Assembly: GCF_000426045.1 (NCBI RefSeq)
Contig: NZ_AUEP01000008.1
Location: 62,001-126,000 of the forward strand
Reading direction: 5' to 3'
From: Marmoricola sp. URHB0036
GTDB lineage: Bacteria > Actinomycetota > Actinomycetes > Propionibacteriales > Nocardioidaceae
Length of the DNA stretch: 64,000 bases
A program made the position numbers and the translations under genes. The notes under the pieces were generated by a model. That model saw only the letters and a program-made list of their open reading frames with translations. It ran no database searches and was not told the origin of the DNA. This document shows, piece by piece, positions 1-37,841 of this stretch (positions are counted from its first letter, which is position 1; every line of letters starts with the position of its first letter).

Positions 1-1303
1 CGCCGACCACGGCCACGTCGTTGACCCCCTCCAGGCGCATCAGTGCCTGCTCGACCTCGGCCGGGTAGACGTTGAAGCCGCCGGAGATGTACATGTCCTT
101 GAGCCGGTCGGTGATCGTCAGGTTGCCGTGCTCGTCGAGGGTCCCGACGTCTCCGGTGTGCAGCCAGCCGTCCTCGTCGATCGCCTCGCGCGTGGCCTCC
201 GGGTCGTCGAGGTAGCCGAGCATCACGTACTCGCCGCGGAGCAGCAGCTCACCGGAGTCACCGATGCTGGCCTCCATGCCCGGGACGGCCCGCCCGCAGG
301 TGTTGGCCACGGTGTCGGCCGAGTCACCCTCGCGACACATCGTGGCGACCACGGCCTCGGTCATGCCGAAGGCCGTGACCACGTTGTCGATGGCCAGACC
401 GTCGGGAGCATCGGCCCGCATCCGTTCGATGAGCACGACGGGCACCACCGCGGCGCCGGTCACGGCCAGCCGCAGGGAGGACAGGTCGTAGGACGCCCGC
501 CCGGGCGCCGTGAGCAACGACTGGTAGAGGGTCGGCGCGCCGGGGAAGACGGTGATCCGTGCGTCCTGGATCAGCCGCATCGTCCCCTCGACGTCGAAGG
601 AGGCCACCGGGTAGAGCGTGCAGCCGGTCAGCAGCCCGACCACGATGCCGATCTTGTAGCCGAACGAGTGGAAGAACGGGTTCACCACCAGGTAGCGGTC
701 GTCGGCGGCGACCCCGCCGAGGCCGGCCCACGCGTCGGCCACGCCGATCGTCTGGCGGTGGGCACTCATCGCTCCCTTGGGCCGCCCGGTGGTGCCCGAG
801 GTGAAGAGGATGTCGGCGACGTCGTCCGCCGCGACCCGGTCGGCGACATCGTCGATCTCGGTGGGATCGGCCGCCACCTGCGCCAGGTCGGCGATGTCGA
901 TCACCCGAAGCACCGACGTCAGGCCGCCGGCCGCCTCGAGGTCCGCGATCTGGGTCCGGCCCAGGAAGCCGTCCGCCACCACGACCAGTCGGGCAGCGGT
1001 GCGCTCGACGAGGTCGGCCACCTCGTGCCCGGTGTAGCGGCTGTTGGCGGGGACGAGCACGCCGCCGGCGTACGACACGGCGAGCGCAGCGACCGCCCAG
1101 TCGGTGCTGTTCGGCGCCCACACCACGACCCGGTCGCCGGCGCCGAACCCGAGCGAGCGGTAGCCGGCCGCGGTCTCGCGGACGCGCTGCAGGAGGTCCC
1201 GGTAGGAGAGGGTGCGCCCGTCCTCGACGTACGCCGCCCGGTCGCCGTGGGCCTCCGCAGCGGCGCGCAGCAATGCCGGGAGCGTGCGCGGTGAGGACGA
1301 CAT
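1..1303 (-). CDS. fadD3: HIP-CoA ligase FadD3-like (acyl-CoA synthetase), partial at window edge
   Basis: Adenylate-forming acyl-CoA ligase. In the steroid pathway FadD3 charges the C/D-ring propionate HIP with CoA in the cytoplasm. About 434 residues are present and the C-terminal lid domain lies beyond position 1. The P-loop LFTSGTTGRPKGAM, the FGMTEA motif, the GWLHTGD motif and the hinge ITDRLKDMYISGGFNVYP are all visible. The start ATG at 1303 follows an AGGAG ribosome binding site. The gene diverges from fadE30 across a KstR2-type palindrome. The specific FadD3 assignment rests on this neighbourhood (fadE30, ipdF, kstR2, fadA6); the ligase family call is certain. Confidence 0.88.
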   Translation of the reverse strand, partial: MSSSPRTLPALLRAAAEAHGDRAAYVEDGRTLSYRDLLQRVRETAAGYRSLGFGAGDRVVVWAPNSTDWAVAALAVSYAGGVLVPANSRYTGHEVADLVERTAARLVVVADGFLGRTQIADLEAAGGLTSVLRVIDIADLAQVAADPTEIDDVADRVAADDVADILFTSGTTGRPKGAMSAHRQTIGVADAWAGLGGVAADDRYLVVNPFFHSFGYKIGIVVGLLTGCTLYPVASFDVEGTMRLIQDARITVFPGAPTLYQSLLTAPGRASYDLSSLRLAVTGAAVVPVVLIERMRADAPDGLAIDNVVTAFGMTEAVVATMCREGDSADTVANTCGRAVPGMEASIGDSGELLLRGEYVMLGYLDDPEATREAIDEDGWLHTGDVGTLDEHGNLTITDRLKDMYISGGFNVYPAEVEQALMRLEGVNDVAVVG

Positions 1304-35196: not shown

Positions 35197-36798
35197 ATGA
35201 CGGTCACGCCCTCCGACGACACCCTCCGCCTCGGCACGCACAACGGTCACACGATGGTCGCCGCGCTCAAGCGCCACCGCGAGAAGCCGGTCATGTTCCT
35301 CGGCGACACCACCCTGACCGGCGGCGAGGTGGCGGCTCGCATCAGCCGGTACGTCCAGGCCTTCGAGGCGCTCGGGGCCGGCCGGGACACCCCCGGCGCG
35401 CTGCTCGCGCTGAACCGGCCCGAGGTGCTGTTCATCCTCGGTGCCGGCCAGACCCAGGGCTACCGGCGTACGTCGCTGCACCCGCTCGGATCGCTCGACG
35501 ACCACGCCTACGTGCTCAACGACGCCGAGATCACCACGCTGATCATCGACCCGGTGCCCATGTTCGTGGAGCGCGCGCTCGGGCTGCTCGAGAAGGTGCC
35601 CGGGCTCACCCAGGTCCTGACCATCGGGCCGGTCCCCGAGGAGCTCGCGCACATCGGCCAGGACCTCGCCGCGACCGCCGAGACCTTCTCGCCGCAGCCC
35701 CTCGAGGCCGTGCTCCTCCAGCCCGACCACATCGTCTCGATCACCTACACCGGCGGCACCACCGGCAAGCCGAAGGGCGTCATCGGCACCGCCCAGGCGA
35801 TGTCGACGATGACCCAGGTACAGCTCGCGGAGTGGGAGTGGCCGGAGTCACCGCGCTTCTTGATGTGTACGCCGCTCTCGCACGCGGGTGCGGCCTTCTT
35901 CGCGCCCACCGTCATCAAGGGCGGCTCCCTCTACGTGCTGCCGCGCTTCGACCCTGCCGAGGTGCTGAGGACGATCGAGGAGCAGAAGATCACCGCGACG
36001 ATGCTGGTGCCGTCGATGCTCTACGCGCTGATGGACCACCCCGACTCGCACACCCGCGACCTGTCCTCGCTCGAGACGGTCTACTACGGCGCGTCCGCGA
36101 TCAACCCGGTCCGGCTGCAGGAGGCGATCGACCGCTTCGGTCCGATCTTCGCCCAGTACTACGGGCAGTCTGAGGCCCCGATGGTGATCAGCTACCTCGC
36201 CAAGGGCGACCACGACAAGGCGCGACTGTCCTCGTGCGGACGGCCGTCGGCCTTCCTGCGCACGGCGCTGCTCGACGAGGACGGCAAGCCCGTGCCGCAG
36301 GGGGAGCCGGGGGAGATCTGTGTGTCCGGCCCCTTGCTCGCGGGCGGGTACTGGAAGCTGCCCGACGAGACGGCCGAGACCTTCCGCGACGGGTGGATGC
36401 ACACCGGCGACGTCGCCCGCGAGGACGAGGACGGCTTCTGGTTCATCGTCGACCGCACCAAGGACATGATCGTCACCGGCGGCTTCAACGTGTTCCCGCG
36501 CGAGGTCGAGGACGTCGTCGCCGAGCACCCGGCGATCGCCCAGGTGGGCGTCATCGGCGTGCCCGACGAGCGTTGGGGCGAGGCGGTCACGGCGATCGTC
36601 GTACTGCGTGAGGGAGCGGAGCTGACCGACGACGTGGTCGCCGAGATCAAGGAGTCGGTCAAGCAGCGCAAGGGCGCGGTGCAGGCACCCAAGCAGGTGA
36701 TCGCCACCGACGCGCTGCCGTTGACTCCTCTCGGCAAGCCGGACAAGAAGGCGCTGCGGGCGGAGTACTGGGGCGACCGGGAGCGCAGCGTCGGCTAG
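35197..36798 (+). CDS. Acyl-CoA synthetase, FadD8-like
   Basis: Adenylate-forming ligase of 533 aa. P-loop SITYTGGTTGKPKGVIG, YYGQSEAP, DGWMHTGDVARED, the hinge VDRTKDMIVTGGFNVFPRE and the catalytic Lys of PLGKPDKKALRAEY are all present, so it should be active. The N-terminus LRLGTHNGHTMVAALKRH resembles M. tuberculosis FadD8. A KstR box overlaps its promoter, so a steroid acid or fatty acid substrate is probable. It has no Shine-Dalgarno, consistent with leaderless translation. Confidence 0.86.
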   Translation: MTVTPSDDTLRLGTHNGHTMVAALKRHREKPVMFLGDTTLTGGEVAARISRYVQAFEALGAGRDTPGALLALNRPEVLFILGAGQTQGYRRTSLHPLGSLDDHAYVLNDAEITTLIIDPVPMFVERALGLLEKVPGLTQVLTIGPVPEELAHIGQDLAATAETFSPQPLEAVLLQPDHIVSITYTGGTTGKPKGVIGTAQAMSTMTQVQLAEWEWPESPRFLMCTPLSHAGAAFFAPTVIKGGSLYVLPRFDPAEVLRTIEEQKITATMLVPSMLYALMDHPDSHTRDLSSLETVYYGASAINPVRLQEAIDRFGPIFAQYYGQSEAPMVISYLAKGDHDKARLSSCGRPSAFLRTALLDEDGKPVPQGEPGEICVSGPLLAGGYWKLPDETAETFRDGWMHTGDVAREDEDGFWFIVDRTKDMIVTGGFNVFPREVEDVVAEHPAIAQVGVIGVPDERWGEAVTAIVVLREGAELTDDVVAEIKESVKQRKGAVQAPKQVIATDALPLTPLGKPDKKALRAEYWGDRERSVG

Positions 36799-36853
36799 GA
36801 GCATTCGCCGGATCCACCTGTCCGAAACGCCCAAACCGGGCTAGGTTGTCGGT

Positions 36854-36932
36854 GAGGGCTCGCACCGTTCTCGGAAAGTGTGAGTAGGGAGGCACGCCGT
36901 GAGGGTGGCGTGCCTGGATCGAGAGAACGGTC
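36854..36932 (+). promoter_or_regulatory. Candidate pseudoknotted structured leader before the HTH/histidine-kinase gene
   Basis: From a TAGGTT -10 candidate (36842-36847) the 79-nt leader can form hairpin 1 CTCGCAC/GTGTGAG (36859-36865 with 36878-36884, one G-U pair). Its loop CGTTCTC (36866-36872) is complementary to GAGAACG (36923-36929), forming a pseudoknot. Hairpin 2 AGGCACGCC/GGCGTGCCT (36890-36898 with 36907-36915) lies between. The pseudoknot would occupy the purine-rich stretch just before the ATG at 36933, the likely ribosome site. No known riboswitch class is recognised. Confidence 0.45.
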
Positions 36933-37841
36933 ATGACCGACTTGCCGAAGCGGCCGCACCAGCTGCGCAGCGCGCCCACGTCCACCTCCGAGCCGGTCGA
37001 CCCGCGCGTCTCCATGGTGCTGTCCGTGCTGGGTGGGCGAGCGGTCGACGACGTGGCCCGCGAGTGGAGCATCGACGCCACGCTCCTGCACCGGTGGGTG
37101 CGTGACTTCCTGGTCGCCGGGTCGAGCGTGGTCACCAACCGGCCCGACCCCGACGAGGCGCGCCAGCGAGACCGTTTCCTGGCAGCCTTCGCCCACGAGC
37201 TGCGCACGCCGGTCGCAGTGGCCAAGGGATGGGCCATGGTCCTCTCGGAGGGCGACGTCCCCGAGGACGAGGTCACCGAGTCGATGGAGCGGTTGACCGA
37301 TGCGCTCACCCGGTTGTCCGAGCACATCCTCGACATCGAGCTGGCCACCTCGGCCTCACTGGGACGCATGCGCGTCAACGTCGAACCCGTCCACGTCGCC
37401 GAGCTGTGCCGCGCGCTCGCGGGCAACCCCGAGGTGCGCGACGGCGGCGACCTGACGGTGTACGCCGACCCGCGGCTGCTCGCCCGCGTCCTCCGCGACC
37501 TCTGGGCCACCGCTCACCAGGAGCCGGTGCCCGACCGCGTCGACATCGATGTCGTCGAGACCGGTTCGTGGCACGAGATCCGCGTCGTACGCGAGGGCAA
37601 CCCGATCAGCCCGATGGTCGTCAAGGCGTTGTTCGACCCGTTCGACGCCAACGACGACGCGACCGGCGTGACGGTCGGCCTCTACCTCGCCCGGGCCATG
37701 GTCGTGGCCCATGGTGGCTTCCTCGGGGCCGAGGGCGACGACCAGACCACCGTGCTGCTGGCGCGACTGCCCCGGGAGCCAGCACTCGATCCGGAGTCGT
37801 CCGACAACGAACCAGGCAGTGACAAGGGAGGAAACCCATGA
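36933..37841 (+). CDS. HTH plus degenerate histidine-kinase-like protein
   Basis: Protein of 302 aa. Residues 25-70 look like a transposase/IS630-type HTH (VDDVAREWSIDATLLHRWVR). Residues 80-130 are a HisKA domain, with His88 in FAHELRTPVAVAKGW. The ATPase half is divergent: the N-box region reads LARVLRDLWATAH instead of an Asn-rich helix, and the G2-like segment is GVTVGLYLARAMV. It may bind rather than hydrolyse ATP. No response regulator is adjacent; the stop overlaps the next small gene. Confidence 0.72.
   Translation: MTDLPKRPHQLRSAPTSTSEPVDPRVSMVLSVLGGRAVDDVAREWSIDATLLHRWVRDFLVAGSSVVTNRPDPDEARQRDRFLAAFAHELRTPVAVAKGWAMVLSEGDVPEDEVTESMERLTDALTRLSEHILDIELATSASLGRMRVNVEPVHVAELCRALAGNPEVRDGGDLTVYADPRLLARVLRDLWATAHQEPVPDRVDIDVVETGSWHEIRVVREGNPISPMVVKALFDPFDANDDATGVTVGLYLARAMVVAHGGFLGAEGDDQTTVLLARLPREPALDPESSDNEPGSDKGGNP

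Follow-up and report, generated by a model that had tools for sequence, protein, structure and literature searches.

Ahead of a histidine-kinase gene in the 64,000-nt stretch of the Marmoricola sp. URHB0036 genome analysed here (the window), an earlier note had proposed a riboswitch-like leader, in which the loop of a first hairpin would form a pseudoknot with the ribosome-binding site (RBS) and so hide it. The locus thus raises the question of whether this DNA specifies a structured leader at all and, if it does, whether the pseudoknot belongs to what has been conserved. The features concerned are collected in Table 1.

Table 1. Features of the leader and of the two genes behind it; positions are those of the window
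Feature	Position	Strand	Basis or remark
Putative -10 box, TAGGTT	36842..36847	+	Read by eye
Putative 5' leader, ~77 nt, transcript start near 36856	36856..36932	+	Onset of conservation
Hairpin 1	36858..36885	+	Core CUCGC/GYGRG and loop letters ...CUCGG conserved in four species
CGTTCTC, 5' arm of the putative pseudoknot	36866..36872	+	Letters present; pairing not conserved
Hairpin 2, inverted repeat with 6-nt loop	36891..36914	+	Predicted fold
GAGAACG, 3' arm of the putative pseudoknot	36923..36929	+	Overlaps the purine-rich likely Shine-Dalgarno stretch; pairing not conserved
Kinase, 302 aa (HTH-like, HisKA, HATPase_c)	36933..37841	+	Domain search
DUF1059 small protein, 59 aa	37838..38017	+	Overlaps the kinase stop by 4 nt

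The elements described in the earlier note are present in the sequence. Hairpin 1 has arms GCTCGCAC (36858–36865) and GTGTGAGT (36878–36885), which form eight pairs including two G-U, around a 12-nt loop, CGTTCTCGGAAA; what had been called a 7-bp loop is 7 nt of these 12, CGTTCTC, complementary to GAGAACG ahead of the ATG at 36933. The complement extends to 9 nt as claimed (ACCGTTCTC versus GAGAACGGT). The 9-bp hairpin said to lie between loop and RBS is there as well, with arms GGCACGCCG (36891–36899) and TGGCGTGCC (36906–36914) and nine pairs including one G-U, to which the ViennaRNA fold adds a tenth, A36890-T36915. Both hairpins are predicted by ViennaRNA in the window leader, together with a small local hairpin that covers the RBS (36917–36932) in place of the pseudoknot, although the program cannot model pseudoknots and this last prediction was made under that limit. 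The 77-nt leader exceeds its shuffles in stability (z -2.62, 2 of 200 shuffles equally stable), and no clear excess is seen for the 131-nt stretch that surrounds it (z -1.17, 21 of 200). The leader DNA matches its own genome once at E up to 0.001; it is directly observed to be single copy, and we rejected a repeated element on these grounds.

The gene downstream encodes a protein with HisKA (residues 78–137) and HATPase_c (179–282) domains and an N-terminal HTH_Tnp_1 match that scores below the gathering score. Matches to the kinase at E up to 1e-30 number 45, in 43 of the 341 genomes of the family, Nocardioidaceae, and the named relatives are Nocardioides sp. and a Nocardioidaceae bacterium. 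In each of the 33 kinase loci that were checked, a DUF1059 gene lies just downstream on the kinase strand, no more than about 135 nt beyond the point where the kinase match ends. Of these loci 31 are distinct, as L033 and L035 are the same place, and likewise L005 and L034. The HTH-like histidine kinase and DUF1059 thus form a tight gene pair; our literature search found no publication treating DUF1059 together with a histidine kinase, and none combining Nocardioides, riboswitch and pseudoknot.

We read the DNA upstream of 31 of the 45 kinase matches, the remaining 14 being covered by a model scan of their genomes (model R1, described below). A related leader is present in four species among the stretches read, namely the window species and those of L002, L005 and L033 (identical to L035), and the kinases of these relatives are 68–72% identical to the window protein. 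Seven species, the window included, have a kinase at least 65% identical, and four of the seven carry the leader; in the other three (L003, L004 and L006) the kinase immediately follows a gene on its own strand that is a homologue of the DUF5995 gene of L033, and the leader model has no match in their genomes. In the upstream stretches read from more distant kinase relatives, the leader was not seen by eye. The DUF5995 homologue, directly upstream and on the kinase strand in L003, L004 and L006, is divergent in L033; neither the window nor the flanks retrieved for L002 and L005 yielded one. A conserved, structured 5' leader ahead of the HTH/histidine-kinase gene is supported in these four species.

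Aligned on hairpin 1, the four leaders share GGCTCGC-N-C...T-N-CTCGG and GYGRG. Over this block (0..32) pairwise identity exceeds that of all 200 shuffles in each of the six species pairs. No pair stands out over the -100..-25 stretch, where 29 to 159 of 200 shuffles equal the real identity across the six pairs, and two of the six (window/L005 and window/L002) beat all shuffles over the 32..80 stretch. Each of the four leaders has a TANNNT box 7 nt (9 nt in the window) ahead of GGCTCGC, reading TAGCGT, TACGGT and TACCGT in the relatives and TAGGTT in the window, and from this -10-like box we infer a transcript start at the conserved block. In the -20..0 stretch that contains it, L005/L002 alone of the six pairs beats all 200 shuffles, and two of the window's pairs are at shuffle level (75 of 200 shuffles as good for window/L002, 105 of 200 for window/L033). 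By these alignments the constrained island is hairpin 1, and the evidence from the promoter part is weaker. In L033 the block contains an indel of one base, which speaks against a coding explanation; as no common frame was seen by eye either, we rejected an upstream peptide (uORF).

Conservation of the island is a direct observation, and so is pairing of the stem-1 core, whose five pairs are intact in 20 of 20 cells across the four species: three pairs are invariant and two have wobble variants that keep pairing, against 30–60% pairing in slid controls. A 5-bp partner for the given 5' arm appears in 12–25% of shuffles per species. No pair of stem 1 is changed on both sides among the four species, and the shuffle control for this is uninformative. 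Hairpin 2 is more variable: it is kept in two species (window and L005), has two pairs broken in L002 and, judged by eye, is absent in L033. In the three species that have it, 25 of 27 stem-2 cells are paired (92.6%), with one pair changed on both sides, C-G to U-A in L005, and a covariation score that 160 of 500 shuffles reach. Folded singly, L005 is mildly more stable than its shuffles (z -1.61), and L002 (z 0.79) and L033 (z 0.54) are no more stable. RNA structure in the leader is plausible rather than proven; the same symmetry fits DNA palindromes.

To assess how unusual the complement between loop and RBS is, 20000 stretches of 77 nt were drawn at random from the window and each was scored for complements to its last 20 nt. 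At least 7 nt were complementary in 1539 of the 20000, at least 7 nt inside the loop of a stem of at least 6 bp in 203, and at least 9 nt in 98. Such a complement is about a 0.5–1% event per leader, which is unusual for a single leader, and at this rarity a chance encounter is to be expected now and then when every leader of a 64-kb window is scanned. The 9-nt complement alone is insufficient for calling a riboswitch.

Comparison among the relatives points the same way. The duplex of each loop with its own RBS has a predicted energy of -15.0 kcal/mol in the window (p 0.0015 versus shuffled loops), -14.7 in L005 (p 0.17), -11.3 in L033 (p 0.26) and -8.8 in L002 (p 0.89), and so the pairing is significant in one of the four species. 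The four own pairs average -12.45 kcal/mol versus -12.8 for the 12 mixed-species pairs (range -8.3 to -21.7), a comparison of four sequences with limited power and with means calculated by hand. A selected helix between loop and RBS should favour own pairs over mixed ones, and of this there is no sign; the general complementarity can be attributed to pyrimidine loops and purine-rich Shine-Dalgarno stretches, which give such pairing anyway. Compared by hand, two of the seven homologous pseudoknot pairs are broken without compensation in L005. The pseudoknot is probably a chance complement in the window species alone, and its proposed role in hiding the RBS is not supported by the comparison. 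The covariation that the earlier note had named as its test is divided in the same manner: the stem-1 core is paired in four of four species and stem 2 has its one C-G to U-A exchange, but stem 1 lacks two-sided changes and the pseudoknot is uncompensated. The note is thus partly supported, in its structured leader in front of the kinase gene and not in its pseudoknot or riboswitch.

The suggestion that the leader fits no known class agrees with our searches. Rfam gave no match in the whole window at the gathering score and none in 36790–37000 at E up to 10; in the relatives' stretches L054–L057, at E up to 5, it gave 12 sub-threshold matches, none of them over a leader, and known riboswitches and other Rfam classes were rejected accordingly. 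Stretch L055, from one of the relatives, holds a perfect inverted repeat at 695–745, whose arms of ~20 bp are ATGTGTGCGTGTGCACGCAT and the complement of this sequence and which lies ~750 nt ahead of that relative's leader; miRNA matches falling on this long repeat were below their cut-offs and were set aside. The 6C RNA of actinobacteria (RF01066), for which G-rich targets have been proposed, invites comparison with the hairpin-2 loop, which is G-rich in L005 and L002. It matched in none of four genomes, although the control was weak, one of 14 control genomes giving a match and that below the cut-off.

To look for the leader elsewhere we used model R1, a covariance model of hairpin 1 and the -10 region, which its four training members match by construction. 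They score 44.7–53.1 bits, and anything else in the 341 family genomes scores at most 29.9, with 72 genomes reaching E 0.1 (these E-values are rough, and the strict filters lose weak matches). In 391 genomes of the order, a set that overlaps the family set and marks the extent of our searches, three training members were recovered, G277 being absent from the matches, and no other match exceeded 32.4 bits. We looked at 29 of the weak matches (L058–L083 from the family genomes and L084–L086 from those of the order). The 26 in L058–L083, at 24.3–29.9 bits, were set aside for these scores and because the full block is absent by eye; all of them lie under a long open frame, as L084 and L085 also lie in open frames, a position which does not discriminate since the four true leaders share it in G+C-rich DNA. 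One of the 26, L064 (G011, from the same genus as the window; 1501–1552, 27.5 bits), does lie in a leader, 11 nt ahead of the ATG of a gene judged MerR-like by eye, and shares CGCTTCTCGG with the leader but without GGCTCGC; we take it, though without proof, as unrelated and due to chance.

Pattern searches in seven genomes gave a similar picture. The hairpin-2 pattern is found at two leaders, those of G000 and G006, and at a single other place, in G277, and its reversed control matches twice in G007. The hairpin-1 pattern, badly chosen in that it misses the window and L033, occurs at the leaders of G007 and G006 and has one further match in G018 and another in G006, with one match of its reversed control in each of G016, G004 and G018. 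In the genomes searched, the leader element was found before the kinase gene only, in four species. As neither model nor patterns gave other convincing copies, a site shared by a regulon was rejected.

We tentatively favour, at somewhat less than even confidence, a reading of the block as a 5' leader that is short, confined to this lineage and acts in cis on the kinase-DUF1059 operon, and in which hairpin 1 is probably the recognition site of a regulator. Transcription would start at or just before GGGCUCGC, as the -10-like box suggests, and the RNA would open with hairpin 1, followed in most of the four species by a second hairpin and then by the Shine-Dalgarno stretch. Hairpin 1 would most likely be bound by a regulator, perhaps the HTH protein that the operon itself encodes or a partner of that protein, and this putative regulator may tune expression of the operon at the 5' end of the transcript. 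Start site, RNA-level recognition and regulator are all inferred. Lineage-specific 5' UTR hairpins and autoregulatory leaders of single genes are of a known kind, and the present leader resembles them in being short, confined to a single operon and few species, and beginning at the presumed transcript start; compared with the autoregulatory leaders, its regulator and mechanism are putative.

Much of the same evidence could be read at the level of DNA, as an operator just downstream of the -10 box at which a bound protein blocks transcription, the hairpins being by-products of repeats. CTCG boxes recur at 11 bp (10 in L033) and are followed by an inverted GYGRG box, and direct repeats spaced by about a helical turn are a frequent target of OmpR-type response regulators. 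Conservation of the loop box CTCGG matches that of the stem, the kinase gene itself encodes an HTH-like domain, and in two species hairpin 2 makes a good palindrome at the DNA level too. We nevertheless consider an operator, though a real competitor, rather unlikely, since the variants in the stem keep wobble pairing, for which a DNA site would have no need, and the model and pattern searches gave no other convincing copies, though an autoregulator needs none. Somewhat less likely again, but likewise a competitor, is that the hairpins merely stabilise the 5' end of the mRNA or space the RBS without any regulation. That hairpin 1 begins at the presumed 5' end and that hairpin 2 is variable or lost would suit such a passive clamp, whose needs are exceeded by the conservation of the loop letters.

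A translational riboswitch that senses a ligand and conceals the RBS in a pseudoknot is the account we find least probable. It can draw on the significance of the window's 9-nt complement against shuffled loops and on best loop/RBS duplexes that are no weaker than -8.8 kcal/mol in any of the four species; against it are cognate pairs no stronger than mixed ones, the poor value of L002 and the uncompensated pairs of L005. SAM-II, preQ1-II and preQ1-III riboswitches are pseudoknots that sequester the RBS, and on paper the window loop could pair with its RBS likewise, with another hairpin between. Unlike those classes, the leader has no Rfam match, its pairing is not conserved and no metabolic gene is involved. 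Recurrence before several genes or in distant lineages is usual for riboswitches, though not strictly required, and here there are one gene and four species. It is only slightly less improbable that the leader is a new, narrow RNA element in which loop/RBS pairing in some species provides autoregulated or ligand-controlled translation of the HTH/histidine-kinase/DUF1059 operon. If the hairpin-1 block is instead a regulator site, as under the leader reading that we tentatively prefer, it would offer a handle on an uncharacterised HTH-histidine kinase paired with DUF1059.
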